Assembly (NCBI RefSeq): GCF_020042665.1
Contig: NZ_CP083376.1
Coordinates: 1,710,001-1,774,000, forward strand
Origin: Pseudoxanthomonas sp. X-1
GTDB lineage: Bacteria > Pseudomonadota > Gammaproteobacteria > Xanthomonadales > Xanthomonadaceae
Direction: 5' to 3'
Length of the DNA stretch: 64,000 nucleotides
Positions 8,316-53,164 of this stretch are shown in pieces (position 1 is the stretch's first letter; every line of letters begins with the position of its first letter). The notes below the pieces were generated by a model. That model searched no databases. It saw nothing but the letters and a program-made list of their open reading frames with translations, and had not been told where the DNA came from. A program made the translations under genes and the position numbers.

Positions 8316-8361
8316 GCGATGTTTCTCCCCCTGGCGCCGATTATGCCGACTCCCATGCAAG

Positions 8362-36698: not shown

Positions 36699-37037
36699 AT
36701 GAAACCCGTTTCGATCCTGATCAAGTCGCTGATCCTGTCGCTGGCCCTGGCCGCTGGCGCGTTCGCCGCCGAGACCCGCGTCAACATCAACACCGCCGAC
36801 GCGGCCGCGCTGGACGCCGCGCTGGTGAACGTGGGCGCCAGCAAGGCCCAGGCCATCGTCGATTACCGCAAGACCAACGGCCCGTTCAAGAGCGCCGAGG
36901 AACTGGCGATGGTCAAGGGCATCGGTCTGAAGACGGTGGAGAAGAACCGCGATCGCATCGAAGTGGGCCGCTCGGCGGCCGCACCGAAGAAGCCTTCCGC
37001 CGCGGCTGCGCCGGCCAAGCCGGTCACCCGCCGCTAG
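36699..37037 (+). CDS. exported helix-hairpin-helix protein, ComEA-like
   Basis: A 112-residue protein with a signal peptide (ILIKSLILSLALAAGAFA) and one ComEA-type helix-hairpin-helix pair: VNINTADAAALDAAL and GPFKSAEELAMVKGIGLKTVEKNRDRI. ComEA-like proteins bind DNA in the periplasm during natural transformation. The Ala/Pro/Lys-rich tail (APKKPSAAAAPAKP) could help nucleic-acid binding. No other competence gene is nearby, so a competence role is likely only by family. ATG 36699 has AAGGAG about 8 bases upstream. Confidence 0.88.
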   Translation: MKPVSILIKSLILSLALAAGAFAAETRVNINTADAAALDAALVNVGASKAQAIVDYRKTNGPFKSAEELAMVKGIGLKTVEKNRDRIEVGRSAAAPKKPSAAAAPAKPVTRR

Positions 37038-37240: not shown

Positions 37241-37323
37241 GCGCAGCCAAATGGCTGGCGCCTGCACTCCAAAGCGCAGCGCGCGCTCTAGACTGGCGCC
37301 CCCTGTCCACGCTCCCTGCGGCC

Positions 37324-37929
37324 ATGCCGACCAGTCGCGTCATTCCCGCCAACGAGTACCGTCGCGAACGCTGGCGCAACCAGCTCGGCTGGACCCGCCA
37401 GATCGCCAGCGGCGGACGCGACGCGCAGGACTGGGACTGGCGCCTGTCCATCGCCGAGATCGAGCGCGATGCGCCGTTCTCGCCGTTTCCCGGCATCGAG
37501 CGCGAGCTGGTACTGCTGCGCGGCCAGGGCCTGCGGCTGTGTTTCGACGATGGTGAGCAGATCGTCCTGCATCCGCCGCACGACCGGCTGCGCTTCAGCG
37601 GCGCGCGCGGGGTGCGCGGCGAACTGCTCGACGGGCCCACGCACGACTTCAACCTGATGTGGCGTCCGCAGGTGCTGGAGGCCGAGCTCCTGCTGCGCCC
37701 GCTGGTCGGGCCGATGCTGTTCTTCGCCGATGCGCGCACGCACTGGGCGATCCACCTGATCGGCGGGCAGGCGCGCTTCGACGCGGCCAGCGACCTGCCG
37801 CCGCTGTGGAGCGGCGACAGCGCGCTGCTGTATGGCGCGCCTGGCCGCACGCGCTATGCGCTGGAAGGCGGTGGTGAGCTGATCGCGGTGAAGTTCACCG
37901 CGCGCGATCCGTTCGAGCCCGGTCAGTAG
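37324..37929 (+). CDS. HutD/Ves-family protein
   Basis: A 201-residue cupin-like protein of the HutD/Ves family. The start SRVIPANEYRRERWRNQLGWTRQIA and later DWDWRLSIAEIERDAPFSPFPGIERELVLLRG are the family's core signature. HutD was first seen with histidine-use genes and Ves with cold response; the biochemical role is unknown. No hut genes are in view. The gene converges with the flavoreductase gene and overlaps it by 7 bases. Confidence 0.9.
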   Translation: MPTSRVIPANEYRRERWRNQLGWTRQIASGGRDAQDWDWRLSIAEIERDAPFSPFPGIERELVLLRGQGLRLCFDDGEQIVLHPPHDRLRFSGARGVRGELLDGPTHDFNLMWRPQVLEAELLLRPLVGPMLFFADARTHWAIHLIGGQARFDAASDLPPLWSGDSALLYGAPGRTRYALEGGGELIAVKFTARDPFEPGQ

Positions 37930-39548
37930 ACGTCGCGCCGGTAGCGGCCCTGCAGGCGCAGGCTTTCCACTGACGCATCGCCGAGCACCTCGCGCAGCAC
38001 CGCGTCCACGCCCGGGGCCATGCCCTCCAGGCTGCCGCAGACGTAGAGCGCCGCACCGTCGCGCATCCAGGCCTGCAGTGGCTCGCCCGCGGCGCGCAGC
38101 GCGTCCTGCACGTAGTGGTGTCCGCCCGGGTCGCGCGAGAACGCCAGGTCCACGCGCTCGAGCCAGCCGGCGTCCTGCCAGGCCGCCAGATCCTCGCGGT
38201 AGTGCAGGTCGTGGGCGCGCTGGCGCTCGCCGAACAGCAGCCAGTTGCGGCGCGCGCCCTGCGCGATGCGGGCCTTGAGCAGCGCACGCAGGCCGGCGAT
38301 GCCGGTGCCGTTGCCGACCAGGATCAGCGGCACGTCGGCGGCGGGCGGATGGAAGTTGGGATTGGCGCGCAGCCGCAGCGCGATCGGCGCGCCGACCGGC
38401 GCGTGTTCGCACAGCCAGCCGCTGGCCAGGCCGGGGCTGCCGTCGGGGCGGTGCATCCGGCGCAGCAGCAGATGCAGCGCGCCATCGCTCGGCAGCGAGG
38501 CGATGGAGTACTCGCGGTGCGGCAGCGGCGCCAGGGCGTCGATCAGCGCCTGCGGACCGGCCCCGGCCTCCACGCTGTCGGGAAGTTGGCGCGAGGCCAG
38601 GGCCCGGGCCAGGGAGATGTCCTGATCTTCCACACGCACCACCGCGTCTGCGTCCAGGCCGTGCGCTTGCAGCCAGGCGGCCACCGTGGCTGCTGCATGG
38701 CGCGGGCCGACCTCGACCAGGTCCCCGGCCTGCCAGTCGGGCAGCGTCTGTGGCGGCGTCAGCGCCAGGTGATAGACCGGGCCGCCGACGCTGCCGGGGT
38801 TGCGCAACGCGCGCTCGGCCAGGGTCCAGGCCTGGTAGCGCGGCACGCTCCAGTCGCCCAGGTCGGCATTGCCGGTCAGCAGCGAGAGGTGATGCTGCCA
38901 GTGGCGCAGCGCGGCCTCGTCGGCGTTGTCGACCTCGACCCGGTCGAACAGCGGCCGCGCGCCATGCGTGCGCAGCCAGGCATCCAGCTGCCGTCCGAAC
39001 GCGCAGAACCGCGCATAGGTCGCATCGCCCAGCGCCAGCACCGCGTATCGCAGATCATCCAACGCGGCCGGCCGCGCCAGCACATCGCGCACGAAGCCCA
39101 GCGCCGGCTCCGGCGGATCGCCTTCGCCCGTGGTGCTGACCACGAACAGGGCGCGCCGGTAGTGCGCCAGCCGCGCGCCATTGAGCGCGGCCAGGTCGAG
39201 CAGGTGCGCCGGCGTGCCGGCCTGTTCCAGCGACTGCGCCGTGCGCTGCGCCAGCTGCAGGGCGAAGCCGGTCTGGCTGGCATGGGCGACCAGGACGGTA
39301 TCGGCCTCGATGGCGCTTGCCGACGCGGGTGGCAAGCGGCGCGTGCGCCACAGGATCCAGCCGGTAAAGCCCACGTAGGCGACCAGCGCGGCGCCGGCCC
39401 AGATCCAGCGCGACGGGCGGGGCGGGCCCGGCCACCAGGTCCCCGGCTGCCAGACGAACAGCACCGCCGCCAGGGCCGCCAGCAGTGCCAGCGCCAGCGT
39501 GTTGCCCAGCGCCGCGCGCGGGGTCGAGAAACGCATCGACGCGCTCAT
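37923..39548 (-). CDS. membrane-anchored flavodoxin/NADPH-flavin reductase
   Basis: A 541-residue protein like the flavoprotein part of sulfite reductase or the soluble part of PiuB-like oxidoreductases. Two N-terminal membrane helices (GNTLALALLAALAAVLFVW and WIWAGAALVAYVGFTGWILW) are followed by a flavodoxin domain (TVLVAHASQTGFALQLA, VVSTTGEGDPPE, LALGDATYARFCAFGRQLD) and a C-terminal FAD/NADPH-binding reductase (REYSIAS for FAD, LILVGNGTGIAGLRAL for NADPH, LYVCGSLEGMAPGVDAVLREVL). It should pass electrons from cytoplasmic NADPH to a membrane partner, probably the PepSY protein. It is the last gene of the PepSY operon and overlaps apbE by 4 bases. Confidence 0.88.
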   Translation of the reverse strand: MSASMRFSTPRAALGNTLALALLAALAAVLFVWQPGTWWPGPPRPSRWIWAGAALVAYVGFTGWILWRTRRLPPASASAIEADTVLVAHASQTGFALQLAQRTAQSLEQAGTPAHLLDLAALNGARLAHYRRALFVVSTTGEGDPPEPALGFVRDVLARPAALDDLRYAVLALGDATYARFCAFGRQLDAWLRTHGARPLFDRVEVDNADEAALRHWQHHLSLLTGNADLGDWSVPRYQAWTLAERALRNPGSVGGPVYHLALTPPQTLPDWQAGDLVEVGPRHAAATVAAWLQAHGLDADAVVRVEDQDISLARALASRQLPDSVEAGAGPQALIDALAPLPHREYSIASLPSDGALHLLLRRMHRPDGSPGLASGWLCEHAPVGAPIALRLRANPNFHPPAADVPLILVGNGTGIAGLRALLKARIAQGARRNWLLFGERQRAHDLHYREDLAAWQDAGWLERVDLAFSRDPGGHHYVQDALRAAGEPLQAWMRDGAALYVCGSLEGMAPGVDAVLREVLGDASVESLRLQGRYRRDVY

Positions 39549-40573
39549 GCCGCCAGCGCGGCCTCGAACTGCGGCGTCATGTGCTCGCCGGCGCCCTGCG
39601 CGCCACGCACCACGAAGCGCGCCGCCAGCCCATGCGCGCGCGCGAACGCCAGTCCCGCCTCCAGTCCCATCACCGTCAGCGCGGTGGCCCAGGCGTCGGC
39701 CTCCATCGCCGTGGCGGCCAGCACGCTGACCGCGGCAGTGGTCTGTTCGACCGGGCAGCCATGGCGCGGGTCGAGGGTATGCGAATAGCGCATGCCGTCC
39801 TGTTCGAAGCGATGCCAGCGATCGCCCGAGGTCGCCACCGCGCAGGCCTTGAGCGCCAGCACGCGCGGCGGCAGGCCGCCATCCTCGTCGGCACCGGTCT
39901 CCACCAGCACGCGCCAGGGCGTGCCGTCGGGCTTGCGGCCGCGGCCGGCCAGCTCGCCGCCGACTTCCACCAGCGCGTCGTGCAGGCCATGCGCGTGCAG
40001 CGTGTCCAGCAGCAGATCGACCGCATAGCCCTTGGCGATGGCCGACAGGTCCAGCTGCGCGCCGCCGGGCTGCAGCAGCTGCGCCCCCTGCGCGCGCCAT
40101 TCCAGGTCGCGCCAGCCGGGGCGCTGGCGCACCTGCTGCAGGACATGATCGGCAGGGCGACCGCGCAGGTCCGCTCCGGCGCCGAACCCCCAGGCCTGGA
40201 CCAGCGCGCCGCAGGCCGGATCGAAGGCGCCGTCGCTGTCGCGGGCGATGCGCAGGGCGGCCTCCATCACCGTGGCGAACTCGCTCGGCAGCGTGTGCCA
40301 GGTCCCGGCCGCGGCGCGGTTGAAGCGGCTCAGGTCCGAGCCCGCTTCCCAGGTGCTCATCTGCGCGACCACGCGGTCCAGCTGCGCCTGCAGCGCATCG
40401 TGCAGGCGATGCAGGCCGGTGCCCGCCGGGACCACGACCCGCGCCGACCAGGTCGTGCCCATGGTCTGCCCGCCCAGGCGGGCCAGTTCGAGGGGGGAGG
40501 CGACGGCGGGCACCATGGGAAGGAGAGGGCTTAAGACAGCCAGGCCGCAGGCGCATCGGCGCCATGCGCCCAT
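39545..40573 (-). CDS. apbE: FAD:protein FMN transferase
   Basis: A 342-residue ApbE-family enzyme that attaches FMN from FAD to a threonine or serine of a periplasmic or membrane protein. A signal peptide (LAVLSPLLPMVPAVA) places it outside the cytoplasm. Motifs are TMGTTWSARVV, QMSTWEAGSDLSRFN, LDLSAIAKGYAVD, the metal-binding HTLDPRHGCPVEQ and TALTVMGLEAGLAFA. No lipoprotein cysteine is seen. The most likely substrate is the DUF2271 protein two genes upstream, which has a DGVTGPT motif. Neighbouring genes are read in the same direction with gaps of 13 or fewer bases. Confidence 0.94.
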   Translation of the reverse strand: MGAWRRCACGLAVLSPLLPMVPAVASPLELARLGGQTMGTTWSARVVVPAGTGLHRLHDALQAQLDRVVAQMSTWEAGSDLSRFNRAAAGTWHTLPSEFATVMEAALRIARDSDGAFDPACGALVQAWGFGAGADLRGRPADHVLQQVRQRPGWRDLEWRAQGAQLLQPGGAQLDLSAIAKGYAVDLLLDTLHAHGLHDALVEVGGELAGRGRKPDGTPWRVLVETGADEDGGLPPRVLALKACAVATSGDRWHRFEQDGMRYSHTLDPRHGCPVEQTTAAVSVLAATAMEADAWATALTVMGLEAGLAFARAHGLAARFVVRGAQGAGEHMTPQFEAALAA

Positions 40574-40586
40574 CGTGCGTCGTGGC

Positions 40587-41399
40587 TTACTGCGGCATCA
40601 CTTCCAGCGTGGCCACGTAGTTGAGGCGACGCTGCTTGGCCTGCGGCAGCGAGGTCTTGGCATCCTCGCTGCTGGCGTTGAGCCAGTACATGCCGGCGTC
40701 CGGCCAGGTCACGGAGAAGGCGCCCTGCGCATCGGTCCTGGCCTTGATCTCTTCCTGCGCGTTGCGGTAGCGGGTGCCGCCGCGAATGACGGTGACCTCC
40801 ACGTTCGGCGCCGGCTTGCCGTCCAGCACCAGCTTGAAGCTGGCCGCCTCGCCGGCGACCAGGTCGCTGGGCGCGGTCACCGGCACCAGTTCCAGGCCGA
40901 CGCCACTGGGCTTGAGCGTGGCCGCGGTAGGTGCGCCGTGGGTGACGAAGGTCTCCACGCGCGAGGCCGCCTGCGAGACCTGCAGGTTCTTGGCGTTCTT
41001 CGGCACCTCGGCGGCGAACCTGGCGGCGTCGCCGCGCCAGCGCTTGCGCTCGCCCTCGGCGGTCTCGTAGCTGGCGAACAGTCCGTTGCTGACCGAGGCG
41101 ATGCGGTAGGTCCCTTCCTGCTTGAGCTCCACGTCGAACACGCTGCGGTACTTGCCGGTGGAGGCGTTCTCCGGCTTGACCGTCGAGCCGTCCGGCGCGG
41201 TGATCACCAGATCGTCCAGGCGCATCGGCACGTGTTCGAAGTAGAACAGGTCGTTGGACACCGCCGCATCCACGCTCACCCACGGATCGTTGCCCGAGAA
41301 GGTCGTGCCCGAGGGCAGCAGCCACTGCTTGTGCGCGGCGGCGGAGAAGGAGGTGACGGCGGCGGCCAGGGCCAGCGCCAGGGTCAGGGAACGCTTCAT
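40587..41399 (-). CDS. DUF4198 periplasmic protein
   Basis: A 270-residue exported protein with a signal peptide ([22 protein letters not shown]) and a DUF4198 domain. Directly after the cleavage site is [14 protein letters not shown], with a conserved His; the later SGKY-like region [21 protein letters not shown] and C-terminal [22 protein letters not shown] strand pattern give a beta-sandwich look. DUF4198 proteins accompany metal or heme uptake genes and are thought to bind metals or act with PepSY reductases; that is family context, not proof. It lies between DUF2271 and apbE in the PepSY operon. Confidence 0.9.
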
Positions 41400-41440
41400 G
41401 CGGGATGCTCCGGTTGCGTGTGCGAAGAACGACGGCGGGA

Positions 41441-41968
41441 TCAGGGCTTGATCGTCAGCGAGACCGCGCCCAGTTCGGAGGCGCCCTGCGCCTTGCCCGA
41501 CTGCGCGGCGGTGGCCGGCCAGGTGAAGGGGACCTTGAGCAGCTCGCGGCCGCCGACCTCGCGCGCGGCCTCGACCACCAGGGTGTAGCTGCCCGGCGCG
41601 AGGCCGGACAGCTGCGGGCTGTTGCCGGCGAAGTCCAGCGTCTGCACGCCGGCCGGGCGGGTGGGGCCGGTCACGCCGTCAATCGGCAGGTCCAGGCTGC
41701 GGCCGGACTTGCGCCACCACTGGCGCAGGTCGGGCAGCCACTTGGTGCCGTGGCCCTCCTTGGTATCGGTGTTCTGGTACCAGACCGCCAGGTTGGTGGC
41801 GGCCTTGCCGTCCGGGCCTTCCACGTACACCGCCACATACGGGCGGTGGTATTCGGCGACGTTGAGCTTGGGGATCTCGACCTTGACCTGCATCGTGGCA
41901 GCGGACGCCGGCACGGTCAGCAGGCCGCTGAGCGCGAAGGTCAGGGTGATCGGGACGGTCTTGGTCAT
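41441..41968 (-). CDS. DUF2271 periplasmic protein, probable flavinylation target
   Basis: A 175-residue exported protein with a signal peptide ([17 protein letters not shown]) and a DUF2271 domain ([40 protein letters not shown]). At residues 97-104 it reads D-G-V-T-G-P-T-R, which corresponds to the D-x-x-(S/T)-G-A-(S/T) motif that ApbE flavinylates; here Pro102 replaces the usual Ala, and Thr103 would carry the FMN. The gene is 42 bases before the DUF4198 gene and 26 after the PepSY gene. I infer that it is a periplasmic FMN electron carrier. Confidence 0.88.
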
Positions 41969-41994
41969 GGCGCGCAAGTCCTGTGGTGAGCGGT

Positions 41995-42660
41995 CTAGTG
42001 GATGAAGATCAGCGCCAGCAGCAGCGGCACCAGCAGCCCTAAGCCGACCATCGGCCAGGTCATGCGGCGCTGGCCGGCATGCAGTTGCAGCAGCAGCAGG
42101 CCGGTGATGCAGAACACCAGGCAGGCCACCGCGAACAGATCCAGGAACCAGCTCCAGGCCGTGCCTGCGTTGCGGCCCTTGTGCAGGTCGTTGAACAGCG
42201 AAATCCAGCCGCGGCTGGTCGATTCGTACTCGACCGCGCCGCTGGCCCGGTCCAGGCTGAGCCAGGCGTCGCCGCCGGGGCGCGGCAGGGAGACATAGAC
42301 CTCCTCGGCCGACCACTCGCCCTCGCGGCCGGACAGGCTGATGTCCAGTTCGCCCTCGAGCCAGTCGCCCACCACCCGCGGCAGCGGCGCATCGCCGTCC
42401 TGCCGTGCGCCCAGCGCCTGGCGCAGCGCCGGCGGCAACGTGGTGGTGCGATGCACGACCTGCGGCCTGGCCTCGATGCTGGCCGCGTGGTTGAGCGTGA
42501 TGCCGGTGGCCGCGAACAGCAGCATGCCGATCAGGCAGATCGCCGAACTGATCCAGTGCCACTGGTGCAGCGTACGCAGCCAGAAGCCGCGGCGTTGCTG
42601 GGTGGAGAGCGGGTCGGCGGCCTGGGCCAAGCGGGGATTTTCCGTTGCAGCGGGAGGCAA
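41995..42660 (-). CDS. PepSY-associated membrane protein (reductase subunit)
   Basis: A 221-residue protein with the PepSY-associated transmembrane layout: helix 1 (WISSAICLIGMLLFAATGITLNHA), a periplasmic loop of about 115 residues, then two helices (FLDLFAVACLVFCITGLLLLQLHA and MVGLGLLVPLLLALIFI). Histidines at helix ends (LHQWHW, LNHA, DLHKG, LQLHAG) could bind heme or quinone, as in ferric-siderophore reductases of the FoxB/PiuB type. It is smaller than those because the flavodoxin/reductase part is encoded separately at 37923. A candidate Fur box lies 24 bases upstream of the ATG, making this the first gene of its operon. Confidence 0.88.
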   Translation of the reverse strand: MPPAATENPRLAQAADPLSTQQRRGFWLRTLHQWHWISSAICLIGMLLFAATGITLNHAASIEARPQVVHRTTTLPPALRQALGARQDGDAPLPRVVGDWLEGELDISLSGREGEWSAEEVYVSLPRPGGDAWLSLDRASGAVEYESTSRGWISLFNDLHKGRNAGTAWSWFLDLFAVACLVFCITGLLLLQLHAGQRRMTWPMVGLGLLVPLLLALIFIH

Positions 42661-42683
42661 AATGCGTGCGGCATTACACCACG

Positions 42684-42702
42684 AATGAGAATCGGTCTCA
42701 AT
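42684..42702 (-). promoter_or_regulatory. candidate Fur box upstream of the PepSY operon
   Basis: AATGAGAATCGGTCTCAAT holds the perfect inverted repeat TGAGA-N5-TCTCA and matches 14 of 19 positions of the Fur consensus AATGATAATCATTATCATT by my count. It lies between the piuC stop and the PepSY gene start, where an iron-responsive promoter would be expected. Confidence 0.6.
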
Positions 42703-42747
42703 TAAATTCCGCGTTGCCTCGATGACCTTCCGGCCAGCGTGGGCCGC

Positions 42748-43437
42748 TTAGACCTCTGCCCAGCCGCGCAGCAGATTGTGATAGACGCCGGTCAGCTGCA
42801 CGATCGCCTGCGCGTCGCCGCCGCTGGCGGTCAGCCGCTGGATGGCCGTGTCCATCTCCAGCAGCAGCCGGCGCCGGCCTTCGTCGCGCACCATGCTCTG
42901 CACCCAGAAGAACGAGGCCAGGCGCGCGCCGCGCGTGACGGGCGTGACCTTGTGCAGGCTGCTGGAGGGATACAGGATCAGGTCGCCGGCCGGCAGCTTG
43001 ACCTCGTGCTCGCCGTAGGTGTCGCTGATGACCAGTTCGCCGCCGTCGTACTCGTCCGGCTCGCACAGGAACAGCGTGCACGACAGGTCCGAGCGCACCT
43101 GCTCGCGCGCGCGCCCCGGACGGTCGACGGCCATCACCGCGCCATCGATGTGGAAGCCGTATTCCCCGCCGCCGGTGTAGCGGTTGAAGCGCGGCGGCAG
43201 CGTGCGCAGCGGCAGGGCGGCGGCGAAGTACAGCGCATTGCGTTCCAGCGCGGCCAGCACCTGCTGGCCCAGCTGTTCGCGCAGCGGCGAGGCGTCGGGC
43301 AGCTGCTGGTTGCGCTTGACCTTGGCGCCCTGCGCGCCAACGGTCTCGCGTCCGTCGGTCCACTCGGCTGTTTCCAGGGCCTGGCGCATGCGCCGGACCT
43401 GGTCGGCATCGAGGATCTGGGGAATGTGCAGCAGCAT
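42748..43437 (-). CDS. piuC: PKHD-type Fe(II)/2-oxoglutarate hydroxylase PiuC
   Basis: A 229-residue dioxygenase of the PiuC/YbiX family. The iron ligands H96-x-D98 (YGFHIDGAV) and H162 (SSSLHKV), and the 2-oxoglutarate-binding R169 (VTRG), are in place. In Pseudomonas the piuC gene neighbours the PiuA siderophore receptor; its real substrate is not known. Here it follows a TonB-dependent receptor by 108 bases. The start at 43437 has AGAGG upstream and begins [14 protein letters not shown], the family start. Confidence 0.93.
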
Positions 43438-43545
43438 GGGATGCGCCTCTACAACGACGCACGGGAAGGCGAGCCTTCCCGTGCTGGGGGTGCCGGTCGC
43501 CCGGCGGTTGGATGCCATCACGCCAACGGCATCAGACCTGGTCCG

Positions 43546-45936
43546 TCAGAAGCGGAAGTCCGCGCTGAGCAGGAAGGTGCGCGGCGTGCCCGGAGTGTAG
43601 CGGTAGCCGCTCTTGTTGATCGCCGCCACGTAGTCCTTGTCGAACAGGTTGTAGCCGTTCAGGCGCAGGCTGAAGTTGCGCGAGACGTCGTAGGACACCA
43701 CCGCGTCGTAGACCGTGTAGGACTTGGCGTACTTGGGCGTGCCCACCGCGCCATCGCTGCCGCGATGCATCCGGCCGGAGTAGCGCACGCCGCCGCCGAT
43801 GGTCAGGCCGAACGGGAAGCGGTAGCTGGTCCAGCTGGTGAAGGCGTCGTCCGGGGTATAGCTGAGGTTGGACGTGCCGTCGGCGCTGATCGACGGGCCC
43901 TCGGTGACCTTGGTCGACATGGAGGTGTAACCGGCCGAGAGGCTCCAGTTGTCGGTGATGTTGCCCACCGCCGACAGCTCCACGCCCTTGACCTTCTTCT
44001 CGCCGGTCTGGGTCGGGTTGCCGAAGTCGTCCAGCACGTTGGCGTTGATCTCGTTGGTCACGTTGGTCTGGAACAGCGCCAGGTTCAGCGCCAGGTTGTC
44101 CAGCACGGCCCACTTGGTGCCGACCTCGAAGGTCCTGGCCTTCTGCGGATCGGCGTTGATGCTGTTGGCCGCACCGTCGGCCGCGGCCAGGGCGAAGTTG
44201 GCCCCGCCCGGCGGCTGCTGCGACAGCGCCCAGTTGGCGTACAGGCTGACCGCCTCGCCGGCCTTGTAGACCGCGCCGAGCTTCCAGTTGAACAGGGTGT
44301 CGCTGGTGTCGGTGTCCACCGTGGTCACGCCGCTGCCGACCGGCGCGCCGTTGCACGGCACCGCGCCGCGGCCGGTGCCGTTGTTGCAGATCGCGCTGGC
44401 CTGGTACTCGGTCTTGTAGTGGTCCAGACGCACGCCGCCGGTCAGCAGGAAGTTCTCGCCGAACTTGAGCGTGTCGAAGGCGTACACCGAGGCGGTGTCG
44501 GTCTTGCCGTGGCTGCCGGTGCCGTTGTGGTACCAGGCCAGCGTGCCGACGGCGTTCCAGTCGGGGTTGTAGAGGTTGGCCGCCGGCAGGCTTCCGGTGG
44601 TGCCGAAGTTGCGGTTGAACTGCTCCTCGCGGGTCAGCTCCAGGCCGGTGCTCAGGGCGTGCTCGACCGCGCCGGTGGCGAAGTCCGCGCGCAGGTTGAG
44701 CTGGTCGGTGATGATCTTGTTGCGCTGGTCCTTGAAGGTCGGCAGGCTGCGCGCGACGGTGTAGGTGGACAGGTCGTTGGGATCGGTCCACTTGATGTTG
44801 CCGGCCTGGGGATTGGCCGCCGTGCCGCCGGTGGTCATGAACGCGCTGAGCAGATAATCCTGCGTCGTCTCGCCCCAGCGCGCGGTGTTGGTCAGCTTGA
44901 ACGTGTCGGAAAAGTCGTGCTCGAGGATGAAGGTCGCCTGCTTGGCTTCCACATCGTCGTGGTCCAGGCGCGTGCCGTAGAAGTTCTCCGGATCGACCGG
45001 GTGGCCGGCCAGCTGCGCCAGCCCCGGCTGCGGTGTCCAGCCCGGCAGGCCGATGGTCGGCACGAAGCCGTCGGGCACGTTCTCCTGCTTGACGTAGTAC
45101 AGGTTCAGCCAGGCGCGCGTGGCGCCGTCGAGGTTGAAGCCCAGCGAGGGCGCCAGGCCCCAGCGCTTGTTCTCCACATGGTCGCGGCCGGGCACGTCGC
45201 TGTCCTGCCACATCGCGTTCAGGCGCAGCGCCAGGCCGCCGGCCAGCGTCTGGCTCCAGTCGGCGGTGCCGCGGCGCTGGTCGTCCGTGCCGCCGGAGAG
45301 CGTGCCGGAGACGGCGTCGTGCAGGGTGGCGCGCTTGCTGACCATGTTGATCGCGCCGGTCGGCGCGCTGCGGCCGTTGTCGGTGCCCGCAGGCCCCTTC
45401 TCGACCTCGACCTGGTCGATGTTGAACAGGTCGCGCGAGATCGAACCCAGGTCGCGCACGCCGTCGACGAAGATGCTGCTGGAGCTGTCGAAGCCGCGCA
45501 TGTAGATGGCGTCGCCGGTGCTGGTGTTGCCGTTCTCGCCGGCGTAGAACGCGCCCACGCCGGGCGAGTTGCGCAGCGCCTCGGTCAGGGTCGTGGCGCC
45601 CTGCTGGTTGAACAGGTCGCTGGTGATCACCTGGATGGTCTGCGGGGTGTCCTGCAGCGGCTGGGTGAACTTGGGCGAGGCCACCGCCCTGGCCTGGATG
45701 CGCGAGCCGTGCACGTCGATCTTGTCCAGGGTGCGTGCATCGCCGCGGTGATGGCGCTGGCCGTCGTGCTCGTCCCGGTCGTGGTCGCGCTGCTGATCGG
45801 CGGACGCGCCCGGCGCATCGATTCCGTCGGTCGCCAGGGCAGTGCCCGGCAGGGCGAGCGCCAGCGAGGTGGCCAGGGCGGCGGCGGTCAGCGGGCGTGC
45901 GCCCGGAAGGTGCTTGCGGGAACGGATGTGCGACAT
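43546..45936 (-). CDS. TonB-dependent siderophore receptor (PiuA/Fiu-like)
   Basis: A 796-residue outer-membrane receptor. The signal peptide ends near residue 35 (LATSLALALPGTALA). A charged stretch rich in His and Asp follows (residues 51-63, DHDRDEHDGQRHH), then the plug domain (TLDKIDVHGSRI, PQTIQVITSDLFNQQGATTLTEALRNSPGV, IDQVEVEKGPAG) and a 22-strand barrel ending in ...RTFLLSADFRF with a terminal Phe. The MSHIRSRKH leader is typical of Fiu/PiuA-type catecholate siderophore receptors. A candidate Fur box lies 174 bases upstream. It is followed by piuC, the usual partner. Confidence 0.93.
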   Translation of the reverse strand: MSHIRSRKHLPGARPLTAAALATSLALALPGTALATDGIDAPGASADQQRDHDRDEHDGQRHHRGDARTLDKIDVHGSRIQARAVASPKFTQPLQDTPQTIQVITSDLFNQQGATTLTEALRNSPGVGAFYAGENGNTSTGDAIYMRGFDSSSSIFVDGVRDLGSISRDLFNIDQVEVEKGPAGTDNGRSAPTGAINMVSKRATLHDAVSGTLSGGTDDQRRGTADWSQTLAGGLALRLNAMWQDSDVPGRDHVENKRWGLAPSLGFNLDGATRAWLNLYYVKQENVPDGFVPTIGLPGWTPQPGLAQLAGHPVDPENFYGTRLDHDDVEAKQATFILEHDFSDTFKLTNTARWGETTQDYLLSAFMTTGGTAANPQAGNIKWTDPNDLSTYTVARSLPTFKDQRNKIITDQLNLRADFATGAVEHALSTGLELTREEQFNRNFGTTGSLPAANLYNPDWNAVGTLAWYHNGTGSHGKTDTASVYAFDTLKFGENFLLTGGVRLDHYKTEYQASAICNNGTGRGAVPCNGAPVGSGVTTVDTDTSDTLFNWKLGAVYKAGEAVSLYANWALSQQPPGGANFALAAADGAANSINADPQKARTFEVGTKWAVLDNLALNLALFQTNVTNEINANVLDDFGNPTQTGEKKVKGVELSAVGNITDNWSLSAGYTSMSTKVTEGPSISADGTSNLSYTPDDAFTSWTSYRFPFGLTIGGGVRYSGRMHRGSDGAVGTPKYAKSYTVYDAVVSYDVSRNFSLRLNGYNLFDKDYVAAINKSGYRYTPGTPRTFLLSADFRF

Positions 45937-46288
45937 GTCGGCAGTGCTTCCAATGAAGTGAAGATTGGTTCCCCCATTGGCGACGGCTGACGGGAGTGCG
46001 GAGCCGCACGCGACCGGGCATCCCAGACCACTGGGGCGCGACGGCATCGCGTGGAGCGGAAGGCGGTCCGGACCAAGCCGGGCGCGCATTCCTTAACGGG
46101 TCGTGATTGTAATGAGAACGATTTGTATTCACAACCGTTCAGCTCGGCTTGTCGCGCGGTCGCTGCATCGCGCGCGCCGGACGGGCCATCGAAGTCGGAC
46201 GGCAGCGCGGTTGCTCCGCCGCCTGGGCGATCCGCAGTTCCGAGGCGAGCAGTTCCAGCAGTTCCAGGATCGCGTGTGCCGTTGGCTG
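45937..46288. other. leader and promoter region of the siderophore receptor
   Basis: No coding frame is convincing here. On the minus strand the candidate Fur box (46111-46129) is followed by about 170 bases before the receptor ATG, containing a CCAAT/ATTGG inverted pair at 45951-45980. I see no riboswitch. Confidence 0.4.
46111..46129 (-). promoter_or_regulatory. candidate Fur box upstream of the siderophore receptor
   Basis: AATGAGAACGATTTGTATT matches 13 of 19 positions of the Fur consensus AATGATAATCATTATCATT by my count and lies in an AT-rich stretch unlike the surrounding GC-rich DNA. It is on the upstream side of the receptor gene. Confidence 0.55.
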
Positions 46289-46703
46289 ATGGGCTCTCGC
46301 GCGATCGGTCTGCTCGGCCACTGGCTGAGCGGGCGTCCGGTCGATCGCGGTCCGCTGGGCGCGACCGCGGCCTTCGCGCTGCTGCTCGGGCGTGGGCAGT
46401 GGCGGCCAGCGTGCCGGTGGCGGGCTCCCCGGGCTGCTGGCGGACGCGCTCGCGCTGTGGGGCATCGCCTACACCGCGCTGTTCCCGTCTGCCAGACGCG
46501 GGTGATGCAGTCCGCGTGGCATGCACAGGGCCGGCCGATACCCTGGACGTCTCGGCCGCCAACGGCGGGACCGGGCTGGGCGCGGTCATCGACGGCCTGG
46601 TGATCCCGCAATGGGGACCGGGCAGCACCGGCTAAGTCGCCACGGCATCGCCGTCGTGGCAATTCTGATGGTGGCGGTGGCCCCGCGTTTGCGGGCGCGG
46701 TGA
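46289..46703 (+). pseudogene. decayed MFS transporter fragment (C-terminal part)
   Basis: Pieces of an AraJ-like major-facilitator protein can be read in order, but in changing frames: GLLGHWLSGRPVDRGPL..AAFALLLG (frame 2), GLLADALALWGIAYTALFP (frame 3), VCQTRVMQSAWHAQG (frame 2), ADTLDVSAANGGTGLGAVIDGLV (frame 1) and IAVVAILMVAVAPRLRAR (frame 3) ending at TGA 46703. These match the order of helices 8-12 in such permeases. No complete frame exists and the N-terminal half is missing, so it is a remnant. Four frame changes in 400 bases make a sequencing error an unlikely full explanation. Confidence 0.6.
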
Positions 46704-46803: not shown

Positions 46804-47139
46804 TCAGTCGCGGTCGTCGCGTGACCACACGCCGCCGTGTTCGACCTTGACCGGGAACTTGGGCACCGGCGCATAGGCCGGCCCGCACAGCGGCACGCCT
46901 TCGCGGATATCGAAGCGCGCGCCGTGCAGCACGCACTCGATGCTGCCGGTCTCGGCGTCGAAGGTGCCCGCCGCCGACAGCTCGAATTCGGCATGGCTGC
47001 AGCGGTCCTCGAGCGCGTAGAGATCGCCGTCCAGGTTGAACACCACGATCGGCGTGCCGGTGACCTCGTCGAAGCCGCTGCGCATCTCGCCCGGCAGCAG
47101 CTCCTCGGTGGCGCAGATGAAGGTCCAGGTCTCGCTCAC
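46804..47139 (-). CDS. Rieske [2Fe-2S] ferredoxin-like protein
   Basis: A 111-residue soluble Rieske protein like the ferredoxin subunits of non-heme-iron dioxygenases. The cluster ligands are C47-x-H49 (RCSHAEF) and C69-x2-H72 (CVLHGARF). No oxygenase component is encoded here. It is the last gene after the suf operon, overlapping the acetyltransferase by 4 bases, an arrangement I recall from related bacteria, which suggests a link to iron-sulfur metabolism. Function is unknown. Confidence 0.9.
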   Translation of the reverse strand: MSETWTFICATEELLPGEMRSGFDEVTGTPIVVFNLDGDLYALEDRCSHAEFELSAAGTFDAETGSIECVLHGARFDIREGVPLCGPAYAPVPKFPVKVEHGGVWSRDDRD

Positions 47140-47660
47140 AACGCCTTCTCCAGCACCTCGAAGCGCAGGTCGTCGCGCAGCGGAGTGCCGAAGCGCGCAT
47201 CGCCGTAGGGGAAGGGCTTGAAGGTGCCGGTACGCACGTAGCCGCGGCGTTCGTAGAAGGCGATCAGGCTTTCGCGCACATCGATCACCGTCATGCGCAT
47301 CACCTCCACGCCCAGCTCTTCGCGGGCGATGCGCTCGGCCTCGACCATCACATCCTTGCCGATGCCGGCGCCCTGCAGGGTGGGGCGCACCGAGAACATG
47401 CCGAAGTAGCCGGCATCGCCCTCGCGCGCCACGTGCGCGCAGGCCACCAGCGTGTCGTCGCGATAGGCCAGCAGTACGCGGCTGTCGGCGCGGCTGAGGT
47501 CGTGGGCCAGCACGTCCCGGTCGATGCGCTGGCCGTCCAGCAGGTCGGCCTCGGTGGTCCAGCCGGCGCGGCTGGCCTGCCCGCGATAGGCCGAGGTCAC
47601 CAGTGCGGTGATCGCCTCGATGTCGTCCAGGGTGGCGTTACGGAAGGTCAGCGTGGTCAT
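47136..47660 (-). CDS. GNAT-family N-acetyltransferase
   Basis: A 174-residue acetyl-CoA-dependent acyltransferase. The acetyl-CoA motif FSVRPTLQGAGIGKDVMVEAERIA and the C-terminal LIAFYERRGYVRTG are typical. The substrate is not identifiable. The start at 47660 (MTTLTFRNATLDDIEAI) gives the normal N-terminus; an upstream frame extends into the palindromic repeat. It is downstream of sufS with that repeat between them and is translationally coupled to the Rieske gene. Confidence 0.9.
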   Translation of the reverse strand: MTTLTFRNATLDDIEAITALVTSAYRGQASRAGWTTEADLLDGQRIDRDVLAHDLSRADSRVLLAYRDDTLVACAHVAREGDAGYFGMFSVRPTLQGAGIGKDVMVEAERIAREELGVEVMRMTVIDVRESLIAFYERRGYVRTGTFKPFPYGDARFGTPLRDDLRFEVLEKAL

Positions 47661-47688
47661 CGGCCCATTGTAAAAGGCCGGCGGCTTC

Positions 47689-47755
47689 GTGGGAGCCGCC
47701 ATGGCGGCGATGGGGCTCTACCGGTGAAGCCCCTCGCCGCCCTGGCGGCTCCCAC
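47689..47755. repeat. 67-bp palindromic intergenic repeat, copy 3
   Basis: Same family as the copies at 1566, 23244 and 58542. It ends two bases from the sufS stop codon at 47758 and may form a hairpin that limits read-through from suf into the acetyltransferase-Rieske pair. Confidence 0.85.
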
Positions 47756-47757
47756 CG

Positions 47758-49035
47758 TCAGCCCAGCAGCGTGCGGGCCTTCTTCAGCGCGGCCACGAAG
47801 GCTTCGATCTCTTCGTGGGTGTTGTAGAAGGCCAGCGAGGCGCGCAGCGTGGCCGCCACGCCGAAGTACTGCAGCAGCGGGTGGGCGCAGTGCTGGCCCG
47901 AGCGCACGGCGACGCCTTCCAGGTCCAGCAGCGTGGCCAGGTCGTGCGCGTGGGCGCCGTCGATCAGGAACGACACCACCGCGGCCTTGTCCGGCGCGGT
48001 GCCGAAGATGCGCAGGCCGTCGATGCGCTGCAGTTCCTCGGTCAGATGCGCCAGCAGCTGCGCCTCGCGCGCGCGGATCGCGGCCATGCCGACGCCGTCC
48101 AGGTAATCCAGCGCCGCGCCCAGGCCGACGAAGCCGGCGATGTTGGGCGTGCCGGCCTCGAACTTGTGCGGCACGTCGTTGAAGGTGGTCTTCTCGAAGC
48201 TGACCTCCTTGATCATTTCGCCGCCGCCGATGAAGGGCGGCATGGCTTCCAGCAGCTCCCGGCGCGCCCACAGCGCGCCGGTGCCGGTGGGACCGCAGAT
48301 CTTGTGGCCGGTGACCGCATAGAAGTCGCAGCCGATCGAGGCCACGTCCAGCGGCATGTGCGGCGCGGCCTGCGAGCCATCCACCACCGTGACGATGCCG
48401 GCCTTGCGCGCGGCCCTGCAGATCTCGCGCACCGGGTTGACCGTGCCAAGCACGTTGGACACGTGGGCCACCGCCAGCAGCTTCACCTGCGGGGTCATGG
48501 CCTTGTAGAGCGCGTCCAGGTCCAGCTGTCCATCGGGCAGGATCTCGGCCACCTGGATCGTCGCGCCGGTGCGCTGGGCGATCAGCTGCCACGGCACGAT
48601 GTTGGCGTGGTGCTCCATGCGCGAGACCAGGATCACATCGCCGGCCCTGAGCGTGGGCAGCGCCCAGGAGTACGCCACCAGGTTGAGGGCGAAGGTGGTG
48701 CCGCTGCACAGGATCAGCTCGTCGCCACGCACGCCCAGGAAGCGCGCCAGCGTCCTGCGTGCGCCCTCGTAGGCGTCGGTCGCCTCGGTGCCCAGCGCGT
48801 GCACCGCGCGGCTGACGTTGGCGTTCTGCCGGCGGTAGAAGCCGTCCACCGCGGCGATCACTTCCACCGGCTTCTGCGCGGTGTTGGCGTTGTCGAAATA
48901 GATCAGCGGCTTGTCGTTGACCGCTCGCGTCAGCAGCGGGAAGTCCATGCGGACGCGGTCCCAGTCCACGCCCTGAGCCTGGCCGGACTCTTCCGGACGC
49001 ACGCCGGCGCTGCCGCTGTTCTCGTGCATGCTCAT
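47758..49035 (-). CDS. sufS: cysteine desulfurase SufS
   Basis: A 425-residue PLP enzyme that takes sulfur from cysteine for Fe-S cluster assembly. The PLP lysine is in VTGHKICGPTG and the active-site cysteine in VRSGQHCAHPLL, in the short-loop group II form; EHHANIVPWQ and the following EILPDGQLDLD are family signatures. The first 25 residues are not conserved. It overlaps sufD by 4 bases. No sufE or sufU gene is adjacent, so the sulfur-acceptor protein is elsewhere or replaced. Confidence 0.96.
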   Translation of the reverse strand: MSMHENSGSAGVRPEESGQAQGVDWDRVRMDFPLLTRAVNDKPLIYFDNANTAQKPVEVIAAVDGFYRRQNANVSRAVHALGTEATDAYEGARRTLARFLGVRGDELILCSGTTFALNLVAYSWALPTLRAGDVILVSRMEHHANIVPWQLIAQRTGATIQVAEILPDGQLDLDALYKAMTPQVKLLAVAHVSNVLGTVNPVREICRAARKAGIVTVVDGSQAAPHMPLDVASIGCDFYAVTGHKICGPTGTGALWARRELLEAMPPFIGGGEMIKEVSFEKTTFNDVPHKFEAGTPNIAGFVGLGAALDYLDGVGMAAIRAREAQLLAHLTEELQRIDGLRIFGTAPDKAAVVSFLIDGAHAHDLATLLDLEGVAVRSGQHCAHPLLQYFGVAATLRASLAFYNTHEEIEAFVAALKKARTLLG

Positions 49036-50339
49036 GCCGCGCCCGCCTGGCGCAGCGCCAGATCGAGGAGGCCGGTCAGCTGGCCGATCAGGGCATCGTC
49101 CTCGAGCACGGCCAGCGGCTCGCGGCAGAACGCGGCGGTCAGCAGGCGTTGCGCGTCGGCCTGCGGCAGGCCGCGCGAGCGCAGGTAGAACAGCGCATTG
49201 GCGTCGAGCCGGCCCACGGTGGCGCCATGCGCGGCCTGCACTTCGTCGGCATGGATCTCCAGCACCGGCTGGGTGTCGATCTCGGCGGTGTCGGACAGCA
49301 GCAGGTTCTTGTTGGACAGGCGTGCGTCAGTGCCGTCGGCGCCTTCGCGGATCAGGATGCCGCCATGGAAAACGGCCCGGCCGCGGCCGGCGCCCAGCCC
49401 GCGCCAGGTCAGGCCGCAGCTGGTATCGCGCGCGATGTGGTCGATGCCCAGCCGCGTATCGACGTGGCGGCGTCCGCCGGCGAGCAGCACGCCGTTGGCG
49501 TCCAGGCGCGCGTTGTCGCCTTCCAGGCGCACGTTGAGCTCGTGCCGCGACAGCGCGGCGCCCAGCTCCAGGTCCACGCGCGTGTAGCGCGCATCGCGCG
49601 CCAGGACCGCGTCGGTGCGCAGCAGGCTGGTGGCCTTGTCCGCTTCGTGCTGGGCACGGGCATGGACCAGCTGTGCGCCCTGCGCCAGATGGACATGGGT
49701 CAGCGCATTGGCCAGGTGCGCGTGTTCGCCGGCGGCCAGGTGGTGTTCGACCACGCGCAGGCGCGCGCCGGCGCGCAGTTCGATCAGGTTGCGCAGGTGC
49801 CAGGCGCGGTCGGCGTGCGCGTGACCCGCAGGCGCCCGCCCATCCGCGTGCGGACTGTCTGCGTCCGCCGCGCCGATGAAGACCAGCTGCAGCGCGGTGT
49901 CCGCCTGCACGCCGGCCTCGACGCGCAGCAGCACGCCTTCGCTGGCCAGCGCGGCGTTGAGCCGGGCGAAGACCTCGTCGTTGCGCTCGAAGCGGCGCGC
50001 CAGGAAGCGCGCGGCATCGCTGCCCTCGGCCAGCGCTTCGGACAGGCGCTGCGCGCTGACGCCTTCGTCCAGACCCGACAGATCGGACAGCGCCTGGGCA
50101 TGGCGGCCGTTGACGAACACCAGGCGCGGGGCGGGAATGTGCGCCAGCAGCGCGGCATCGACCCGCGGCGCGGCGTCCACAGGCGCGAAGCTGCGGCGCT
50201 CCAGCGCCCGCAGCGAGGTGTACTTCCAGGCCTCGTCGCGCTGGCTCGGCAGGCCGGCGGCCAGGGCGTCGTCCAGCACCGCGCGGCGCGTGGCATCGCC
50301 CTCGAAGGCGGACGCCAGGGAGTCCAGCAGCGTGCTCAT
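49032..50339 (-). CDS. sufD: Fe-S cluster assembly protein SufD
   Basis: A 435-residue SufD, which with SufB and SufC forms the scaffold complex. The C-terminal SufBD domain is recognisable (HGATVGRLDANALFYLRSRGLPQADAQRLLTAAF), including the conserved His of the cluster-assembly site. The N-terminal half is variable. It is flanked by 4-base overlaps with sufC (upstream) and sufS (downstream), so expression is tightly coupled. Confidence 0.93.
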   Translation of the reverse strand: MSTLLDSLASAFEGDATRRAVLDDALAAGLPSQRDEAWKYTSLRALERRSFAPVDAAPRVDAALLAHIPAPRLVFVNGRHAQALSDLSGLDEGVSAQRLSEALAEGSDAARFLARRFERNDEVFARLNAALASEGVLLRVEAGVQADTALQLVFIGAADADSPHADGRAPAGHAHADRAWHLRNLIELRAGARLRVVEHHLAAGEHAHLANALTHVHLAQGAQLVHARAQHEADKATSLLRTDAVLARDARYTRVDLELGAALSRHELNVRLEGDNARLDANGVLLAGGRRHVDTRLGIDHIARDTSCGLTWRGLGAGRGRAVFHGGILIREGADGTDARLSNKNLLLSDTAEIDTQPVLEIHADEVQAAHGATVGRLDANALFYLRSRGLPQADAQRLLTAAFCREPLAVLEDDALIGQLTGLLDLALRQAGAA

Positions 50340-51100
50340 GCCGCCGCTTCCGGCGCCACGCGGTCCTTCAGCCAGGCGTAGCCGTGGGCTTCCAGCTCCA
50401 GCGCCAGCTCCGGCCCGCCGGTCTGCACGATCCTGCCGTCGGCCAGCACATGCACCACGTCGGGCTTGATGTAGTCCAGCAGGCGCTGGTAGTGGGTGAT
50501 GACCAGGAACGAGCGCCCGGCGCTGCGCAGCGCGTTGACGCCCTCGGCCACGGCCTTGAGCGCGTCGATGTCCAGGCCCGAGTCGGTCTCGTCCAGGATC
50601 GCCAGCTTCGGCTCGAGCACTGCCAGCTGGAAGATCTCGTTGCGCTTCTTCTCACCGCCGGAGAAGCCCTCGTTGACGCCACGATGCAGCAGCTCGTCCT
50701 TCAGGTGCAGCACCGCCAGCTTCTCGCGCACCAGCTTGAGGAACTGCATGGAATCCAGCTCGGATTCGCCGCGCGCCTTGCGCTGGGCATTGAGCGCGGC
50801 GCGCAGGAAGTAGGTGTTGTTCACGCCCGGGATCTCGACCGGGTATTGGAAGGCCAGGAACACGCCGGCCGCGGCACGCTCCTCCGGTTCCAGCGCCAGC
50901 AGGTCGGCGCCCTCGAACTGCACGCTGCCTTCGGTGACCTCGTAGCCCTCGCGGCCGGCCAGGATGTTGCCCAGCGTGGACTTGCCCGCGCCGTTGGGGC
51001 CCATGATGGCGTGCACCTGGCCCGGCTTCACCTCCAGCGAGAGGCCTTTGAGGATGTCCTTGCCGGCGACGGCGGCGTGGAGGTTGTCGATCTTGAGCAT
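50336..51100 (-). CDS. sufC: Fe-S cluster assembly ATPase SufC
   Basis: A 254-residue ABC-type ATPase that drives SufBCD. Motifs: Walker A GPNGAGKST, Q-loop FLAFQYPVEIPGV, signature GFSGGEKKRNEI and Walker B LAILDETDSGLDIDAL. The start at 51100 is MLKIDNLHAAV; a longer frame upstream reads through the repeat region into sufB and is not coding. The gap to sufB (116 bases) is unusually large for this operon and holds repeat arms. Confidence 0.96.
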   Translation of the reverse strand: MLKIDNLHAAVAGKDILKGLSLEVKPGQVHAIMGPNGAGKSTLGNILAGREGYEVTEGSVQFEGADLLALEPEERAAAGVFLAFQYPVEIPGVNNTYFLRAALNAQRKARGESELDSMQFLKLVREKLAVLHLKDELLHRGVNEGFSGGEKKRNEIFQLAVLEPKLAILDETDSGLDIDALKAVAEGVNALRSAGRSFLVITHYQRLLDYIKPDVVHVLADGRIVQTGGPELALELEAHGYAWLKDRVAPEAAA

Positions 51101-51206
51101 GGGATTGGGGATTCGGGATTGGGGATTCGTAAATGCGGAAGGCAGGCGGAATGCGGGGGAGCGGGAGGCGATCGCCGATCCCGAATCTCCAATCCCGAAT
51201 CCCGGC
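51101..51206. repeat. facing GGGATT-rich repeat arms inside the suf operon
   Basis: Left arm (51101-51130) is built of GGGATTC/GGGATTG units; right arm (51178-51205) is the inverted type (CCCGAATC/CCAATCCC). They could fold into a long hairpin in the sufB-sufC intergenic RNA. This kind of repeat is familiar between genes in xanthomonads. Confidence 0.8.
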
Positions 51207-51216
51207 CCGACGAGCG

Positions 51217-52686
<1,470 letters not shown>

Positions 52687-52702
52687 GGGGGCTGCCTACA
52701 GT

Positions 52703-53164
52703 TCAGTTGTCCACGCGCACGGCGATGGGGCGGCGGCGCGTATCGGGAGCGGGGGAGGGGGCGGCCGGCTGCAGCATCTGCGCCAGCGTCATGCCGCGCA
52801 GCGCGTCGGCCACCACGTCGTTGATCAGCCGCCAGTTGGCGCGCACGCCGCAACGCTGGGCGATGCCGCACTGGCTGTCGTGCTGGCTGCACTCGGTGAT
52901 CGCCAGCGGCCCTTCCATGGCCTCGATGATCTGCACCAGGCTGATCTCGCTGGCCGCATGCGCCAGCCGGTAGCCGCCGTGCACCCCGCGCAGGCCTTCG
53001 ACCAGCCCGGCCTGGGCCAGCGGCTTGAGCACCTTGCTGACGGTGGTGGCTTCCAGGCCCGAGGCCTCGGCCAGTTCTGTGGCGCTGAGCACTTCGCCGC
53101 TGCGGTTGGCCAGGACGGTCAACAGGACGGTGGCGTAATCGGTGAGCTTTGTGACGCGCAGCAT
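52703..53164 (-). CDS. Rrf2-family SUF operon regulator
   Basis: A 153-residue Rrf2 transcription factor (IscR-like, the SUF-associated type). The winged helix-turn-helix is in TKLTDYATVLLTVLANRSGEVLSATELAEASGLEATTVSKVL. Three cysteines C92, C99 and C105 (spaced CSQHDSQCGIAQRC) are at the [2Fe-2S] ligand positions. Expected to repress or activate the suf genes according to cluster status. The C-terminal tail is Pro/Arg-rich. As first gene of the operon it probably controls itself. Confidence 0.94.
   Translation of the reverse strand: MLRVTKLTDYATVLLTVLANRSGEVLSATELAEASGLEATTVSKVLKPLAQAGLVEGLRGVHGGYRLAHAASEISLVQIIEAMEGPLAITECSQHDSQCGIAQRCGVRANWRLINDVVADALRGMTLAQMLQPAAPSPAPDTRRRPIAVRVDN

Follow-up and report, generated by a model that had tools for sequence, protein, structure and literature searches.

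PiuA/Fiu receptors and the dioxygenase PiuC are important for siderophore uptake in many Gram-negative bacteria, and how iron is released from the siderophore in this pathway is, to our knowledge, an open question. A locus of Pseudoxanthomonas sp. X-1 poses this question in a specific form: can the job of PiuB, a name that we take to denote the fused PepSY_TM-flavodoxin-reductase type, be divided among several proteins? The locus lies in a 64,000-nucleotide stretch of contig NZ_CP083376.1 (positions 1,710,001 to 1,774,000), called the window here, and comprises seven complete genes at 37923-45936, all on the minus strand. Taken together, its features suggest that the locus probably serves under iron starvation and consists of two Fur-repressed units, the second of which would be a flavinylation-based transmembrane ferric reductase that replaces PiuB. 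The features, in window coordinates, are as follows.

43546..45936, minus strand: TonB-dependent receptor of the Fiu/PiuA type, 796 amino acids (NF007349 and a match to the Fiu structure)
42748..43437, minus strand: PiuC, PKHD-type Fe(II)/2-oxoglutarate dioxygenase, 229 amino acids (NF003975, PF18331)
41995..42660, minus strand: PepSY_TM_like_2 membrane protein (PepSY), three predicted helices (PF16357)
41441..41968, minus strand: DUF2271 protein, predicted periplasmic, with a predicted flavin mononucleotide (FMN) acceptor, T103 (PF10029)
40587..41399, minus strand: DUF4198 protein, predicted periplasmic, with a predicted mature N-terminal histidine, H23 (PF10670)
39545..40573, minus strand: ApbE, flavin adenine dinucleotide (FAD):protein FMN transferase (PF02424)
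37923..39548, minus strand: FldR, flavodoxin-reductase with an N-terminal membrane anchor, 541 amino acids (PF00258 and PF00175)
46111..46129, minus strand: Fur-box-like palindrome before the receptor gene, 15/19 (consensus scan)
42684..42702: Fur-box-like palindrome between PiuC and PepSY, 16/19 on the plus strand and 15/19 on the minus strand (consensus scan)

The gene kinds, their order, and their common strand had been described in a first-pass annotation made from the letters alone, and all three were borne out by the open reading frame coordinates and by Pfam and NCBIfam profiles. Its pairing of a PiuA-like receptor with PiuC likewise held, with NF007349 and NF003975 both above cut-off. 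The receptor scored 1009.2 bits against NF007349, "catecholate siderophore receptor Fiu" (cut-off, 686), and matched the Fiu structure 6bpm with an expect value (E) of 2.5e-212. In the same NCBIfam search, PiuC exceeded the cut-offs of NF003975 (350.8 versus 180) and NF003974 (263 versus 143) and fell below those of NF003973 (325 versus 336) and NF003972, YbiX (290 versus 399). PiuC also matched the solved chain 9qn1, named PKHD-type hydroxylase PiuC (E, 5e-85), was the only PF18331 match in the genome, and shows an HxD motif (at FHIDG) with LHKVTP further on. Pfam scores for the remaining families were 286.7 bits (PF16357) and 48 bits (PF03929) for PepSY, 170.4 for DUF2271, 203.4 for DUF4198, and 272.6 for ApbE. 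From PepSY onward the genes are closely packed, as had been noted: the spacings from PepSY through DUF2271 and DUF4198 to ApbE are 26, 41, and 13 bases, and ApbE and FldR overlap by 4 bases. Start codons were chosen by us, TTG at 42660 or 42630 for PepSY and ATG at 45936, picked for GGAAG, for the receptor; depending on that choice, PiuC and PepSY are 87 or 117 bases apart, with a Fur-like palindrome inside the interval.

PepSY_TM and flavodoxin-reductase do not share a single chain at this locus, where they occupy two genes, and a fused form occurs elsewhere. Four long PepSY_TM proteins (L002 to L005) are encoded in other parts of the genome; L004, an 847-codon open frame adjoining a receptor-like match, is of the PepSY_TM-flavodoxin-reductase type. 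Residues 45-541 of FldR align with residues 342-847 of L004 at 50% identity (E, 3e-132), a span that includes the fourth and last predicted membrane helix of L004. FldR therefore appears to correspond to the C-terminal portion of a PiuB-type protein, with the cut falling inside the PepSY_TM region. Hydropathy gives FldR one helix, at 14-32, and its alignment with the fused L004 points to a second, at about 48-67, opposite the last PepSY helix of that protein. Split and fused forms coexist in this genome, so that a single deletion at the locus may be masked. The two differ in build: the fused type is one chain, while the locus has several proteins and a predicted covalent flavin.

Linkage to PiuC was evaluated in 398 genomes drawn across the phylum. 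DUF2271 was above cut-off in 65 and PiuC matched in 94; both were present in 43, compared with about 15 expected (43 of 65 genomes with DUF2271 versus 51 of 333 without; odds ratio, 10.8; p, 5e-16, phylogeny ignored). Of these 43 genomes, 22 had PiuC within 12 kb of DUF2271; the window's family contributed 7, counting the window itself, and the remaining 15 were spread over six further families. The placement of PiuC varied among same strand upstream, same strand downstream, divergent, and convergent. Under random placement we estimate that fewer than one such case would be expected. PiuC was farther off on the same contig in 10 of the 43 and on a different contig, where distance is hard to judge, in 11.

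We further inspected the neighborhoods of PiuC at 88 of 103 places (E ≤ 1e-14; the weaker 15 were left out), up to 9.8 kb on either side, labeling genes by score limits that we set; two PiuC genes of one genome (G225) sit in overlapping stretches and were counted twice. A receptor adjoined PiuC at 84 of the 88 places. As for the reductase, the split DUF2271 unit was found at 22, a fused PepSY_TM-reductase at 7, a long PepSY_TM protein without a reductase domain at 6, and none of these at 53. No place among the 88 held two reductase kinds, and the lack of overlap between the 22 and the other 13 has a p of 0.017 under independence. Both solutions occur within one genus (g15): next to PiuC, G261 carries the split unit, and G310, G344, and G387 carry the fused protein; ApbE was not found in the fetched stretch of the G261 unit. 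The 22 split stretches, some of them cut, contained PepSY and DUF4198 in every case, ApbE in at least 19, and FldR in at least 15. At two of the 53 places (L184 and L196), PiuC is accompanied by a PepSY_TM_like_2-like frame that stands alone, with no DUF2271, perhaps a further form of reductase.

The first-pass annotation had proposed that the work of PiuB is divided among separate proteins here. This proposal is backed by the FldR-L004 homology and by the PiuC places, at which the split unit or a fused or long PepSY_TM protein, but never both, adjoins PiuC; fused and split kinds are thus joined both by sequence and by position beside PiuC. On balance, linkage and homology favor it.

The locus was also compared with the 80 best-matching DUF2271 loci of named genomes, gene presence being counted by tblastn. 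These loci belong to Pseudoxanthomonas, Xanthomonas, Stenotrophomonas, Luteimonas, and a few otherwise titled genomes, the nearest named one being Pseudoxanthomonas winnipegensis (L008; DUF2271, 98%). The core kept a fixed order wherever the contig reached, with PepSY and DUF2271 in 80/80, DUF4198 in 79/80, and ApbE and FldR in 78/80 each; the missing genes trace to L056 and L071, whose contigs break off within the unit. Because the order is kept in this way, it cannot be put down to chance. In 72 of the 80, PiuC preceded the unit on the same strand, and of the 8 misses, two contigs (L025 and L063) stop too early to judge. Between PiuC and PepSY, 24 of the 80 loci had a second receptor-like match; in three loci whose interval was inspected, two had a receptor-like frame and one, the Xanthomonas locus L032, had a frame at 7562-8320 that we read, on our own judgment and not from a model, as Sel1 repeats. 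Homologues of DUF2271 were found on plasmids in 18 of 72,556 records, each below 60% identity.

Iron regulation through Fur, another claim of the first-pass annotation, found support both in the window and in its relatives. We scanned both strands of the whole 64 kb for the 19-base Fur consensus palindrome, and only two places reached 14/19 or more, 42684-42702 and 46111-46129; the end of the latter is also the right edge, 46129, that had been given to the locus. One palindrome lies before the receptor and the other before PepSY, and we therefore read the locus as two Fur units, receptor-piuC and pepSY-to-fldR, both probably iron repressed. In the relatives, the scan ran from −400 to +60 around each gene match at a threshold of 13/19, with shuffled stretches as the control. 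A palindrome was found around PepSY in 59 of 79 relatives versus 1 of 79 shuffled stretches; for PiuC and for each of the remaining four core genes, the count was 0 or 1 among 71 to 80. A promoter and terminator scan of 37300-46700 gave a single sigma-70-like match, at 46134-46106 (TTGTGA-17-TACAAT; shuffle mean, 0.4), which overlaps the receptor palindrome, and none at PepSY. Terminator-like sites numbered 2, with 3.0 expected, and none lay 3' of FldR on the FldR strand.

The five-gene set itself is already known from other bacteria, as the available portions of several papers attest. In Caulobacter crescentus, CC_3059-3063 (CCNA_03155-03159) are upregulated 12- to 51-fold under iron limitation and in a fur mutant, the first gene has Fur sites overlying its promoter (PMC3751524), and insertions in the five genes affect fitness under ethylenediaminetetraacetic acid (EDTA) (PMC12004947). 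Their kinds and order are those of our locus: a membrane "transporter" (PepSY family, COG3295), DUF2271, DUF4198, ApbE, and a sulfite-reductase-like flavoprotein (PMC3751524, PMC12004947). The co-conserved pair CciT/CciO has been likened to PiuA/PiuC and, in the portions of that paper available, is not joined to the five-gene unit (PMC12004947); by locus tag, receptor and dioxygenase are far off from the unit in Caulobacter, whereas they stand next door on the same strand here. Meheust et al. (2021) described PepSY-like clusters with ApbE, DUF2271, and DUF4198, 231 of them with a TonB receptor, proposed that they reduce iron or extract it from siderophores, and showed one DUF2271 protein to be flavinylated (PMC8238504). 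Our locus shares with those clusters PepSY-like (PF16357/PF03929), ApbE, DUF2271, and DUF4198 components and differs in having PiuC in the neighborhood and TGPT as its acceptor motif (PMC8238504). DUF4198 and DUF2271 also occur beside iron-regulated receptors in Alteromonas (PMC7190382). In Stenotrophomonas maltophilia K279a, the predicted Fur regulon includes SMLT_RS05535-05570, with PepSY and the next gene, two TonB receptors, sel1, and piuC (PMC6240677). The order of kinds there agrees with that of the Stenotrophomonas loci of our analysis, and names and tags suggest that it is the same locus, but the receptors are different and, of the five-gene core, the available text lists only PepSY and one more gene (PMC6240677). 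By its tag, sel1 of K279a falls between a receptor and piuC (PMC6240677).

The first-pass annotation treated the chain as one not yet put together, and this did not stand, because five genes in order, Fur control, fitness under chelation, and a flavinylated DUF2271 had all been published for other bacteria (PMC3751524, PMC12004947, PMC8238504). New here are the homology of FldR to the fused PiuB type, the counts of PiuC-DUF2271 linkage, and the mutually exclusive reductase partners of PiuC. A full-text literature search that covered few subscription journals found no paper linking PiuC to the flavinylation unit as a replacement for PiuB.

The alternative that survives best, possible if doubtful in our judgment, is that the five genes encode a general-purpose ferric reductase of the periplasm, which acts on any Fe(III), be it held by citrate or chelates or already released, to feed Fe(II) import and stands near PiuA and PiuC only through shared Fur repression. 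That the two Caulobacter units are separate from each other and are each important under EDTA (PMC12004947) agrees with such a role, as do the constancy of the core beneath a varying upstream receptor and the presence of a FeoB match in this genome. However, shared regulation alone leaves FeoB distant. In the 34 of 65 DUF2271 genomes with FeoB among the matches listed, in which the window's own FeoB place is not included, FeoB was within 12 kb of DUF2271 in none and on the same contig in 12, the nearest at 17.8 kb, whereas PiuC was that close in 22 of 43, with 32 on the same contig, and in several arrangements.

With respect to flavin transfer, the genome profile search found a single ApbE, a single DUF2271, and nothing that matched FMN_bind. 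Of the families searched, DUF2271 is therefore the sole one predicted to supply an ApbE substrate. ApbE has a hydrophobic N-terminal stretch at residues 7-25. For the residue comparisons that follow, 71 PepSY, 94 DUF2271, and 89 DUF4198 sequences could be called by our start-codon routine, the window included. D97 and T103 of DUF2271 were present in 94/94 sequences (the window and 93 loci), and each of the 120 listed homologues, out of 7055, had both as well; T103 in D97-GVTGP-T103 is the predicted FMN acceptor. The published acceptor motif is [S/T]GA[S/T] (PMC8238504), and TGPT fits it at 3 of 4 positions. An earlier candidate, QGAS near the C terminus of DUF2271 (about residues 160-163), was dropped when the alignment showed the invariant D97..T103 instead.

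PepSY has three predicted helices and aligns to the C-terminal region of the PepSY_TM profile (positions 171-291 of 295). Its histidines H32, H35, H58, H160, H194, and H221 were kept in 67, 70, 70, 71, 68, and 70 of the 71 sequences, respectively (locus L092 was left out of the alignment because the interval taken for it contained a stop). H32/H35 and H194 would point toward one membrane face and H58/H160/H221 toward the other, an arrangement that would suit one heme per face and is limited by the position of H160, some residues before its predicted helix. FoxB reportedly holds one heme at each membrane face and is a heme protein with reductase activity, as other papers also cite; FoxB and HiuB proteins are longer than the window's PepSY. 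They are likewise PepSY membrane proteins with histidine-held hemes beside a siderophore receptor, and the available portions of the source report no reductase domain, ApbE, or DUF2271 alongside (PMC13001220).

DUF4198 had been suggested to hold metal or siderophore, and solved structures of this fold with Ni, Cu, Zn, and Co agree with the metal part of that suggestion (PMC12537917). Its structural model (predicted local distance difference test score, 89) matched Ni-bound IsDUF4198 (9gcb; E, 1.8e-9) and Zcp (9mhi-9mhn, with Cu, Zn, and Co; E, 3e-14); 9gcb was not listed in sequence searches with DUF4198 and was matched by fold only, and identity to IsDUF4198 and Zcp is only 16-17%. An "AH" follows the signal-like stretch in 89/89 sequences, so that on predicted cleavage the mature N-terminal residue would be histidine, which IsDUF4198 also has. 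In IsDUF4198, the N-terminal His and His18 are the ligands for Ni, with a dissociation constant of 18 nM (PMC12537917); mature position 18 of the window protein is W40 by simple count along the sequence. H57 and H176 are conserved in relatives, and the near-invariant His176 (HPND) is His in 87 of 89 and Ala (APSD) in the window and L008. DUF4198 is a plausible metal protein.

These properties also bear on an alternative that we consider improbable, in which the unit handles nickel, copper, or zinc, with DUF4198 binding the metal and PepSY supporting its reduction, as in Bordetella copper-linked PepSY_TM operons. The fold matches and the tight nickel binding of IsDUF4198 are compatible with it, and a PepSY_TM gene adjoins a copper TonB-dependent transporter (PMC12914433); iron is favored by the Fur-like palindromes, by a receptor of the Fiu/PiuA type, and by the way the Caulobacter orthologues respond to iron. 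Least probable of all, and in our estimate quite unlikely, is a periplasmic redox repair or respiratory side path resembling MsrPQ that is iron regulated by happenstance: flavinylation and MsrQ-like systems do serve other periplasmic reductions (PMC8238504), but the unit has no reductase for another substrate and lies near PiuC in 22 of 43 genomes.

In the two-unit reading that we prefer, the Fiu/PiuA receptor of the first unit would bring a ferric catecholate-type siderophore across the outer membrane, and PiuC would modify something in the cytoplasm. In the second, electrons from reduced nicotinamide adenine dinucleotide phosphate (NADPH) would enter FldR (FAD, FMN) at the inner face of the inner membrane, pass through two bis-histidine hemes held in the PepSY helices to the covalent FMN that ApbE would attach to periplasmic DUF2271, and from there reach the Fe(III) of the siderophore. 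The Fe(II) so released would enter via FeoB or a similar transporter, and DUF4198 would bind metal through its N-terminal histidine. We infer the direction and continuity of this electron flow, the siderophore as its acceptor, and the role of DUF4198.

Several observations weigh against the preferred reading. The co-occurrence p value ignores phylogeny, 22 of the 65 DUF2271 genomes lacked PiuC, no reductase of these kinds was found within 9.8 kb at 53 of 88 PiuC places, and all seven fused cases came from one family (f6). In the fetched stretches, 3 of the 22 split loci had no ApbE and 7 had no FldR; two loci of f6 (L107 and L188) carried PepSY, DUF2271, DUF4198, and FldR with no ApbE in the fetched stretch. 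The best receptor match was of the Fiu type (at least 55%) in only 22 of 72 PiuC-bearing loci, the others having different receptors, and a palindrome of 13/19 or better was found at these varied receptor starts in only 27 of 68. At the third motif residue, proline stands in place of the published alanine in 88 of 94 DUF2271 sequences and in 120/120 homologues listed, and FoxB was absent from the fold matches listed for the PepSY model.

Other features surround or overlie the locus. A HutD-family protein (37324-37929, plus strand) is convergent with FldR, overlaps its end by 7 bases, and is kept in 72 of the 80 relatives; a small helix-hairpin-helix protein lies at 36699-37037 on the plus strand. 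Antisense to PiuC and the receptor runs an open frame of 1083 amino acids (42739-45990, plus strand), in all likelihood a high-GC artifact. Upstream of the receptor, 46804-53164 on the minus strand is an apparent suf iron-sulfur assembly operon, with an Rrf2 regulator, two SufBD proteins flanking an ABC ATPase, a class-V aminotransferase that we read as SufS-like, a GNAT protein, and a Rieske protein.

More broadly, the PiuA-PiuC system may need a periplasmic ferric reductase that comes as interchangeable modules, namely, fused PiuB, a plain PepSY_TM protein, or the five-gene flavinylation unit, the last having arisen when a PiuB-type protein was cut before its last membrane helix and a covalent-flavin relay was added; our locus would be the flavinylation form. 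We give this wider model an even chance. If true, it would explain why PiuC, receptors, and ApbE keep meeting in genomes. The repeated linkage of PiuC with a reductase module predicts that a strain without the module would show the phenotype of a receptor mutant on the same ferric siderophore, and it provides a likely route to a substrate for the flavinylation reductase of Meheust et al. That the five-gene set recurs beside this receptor system, for which a one-piece reductase serves in other bacteria, is a useful new clue.

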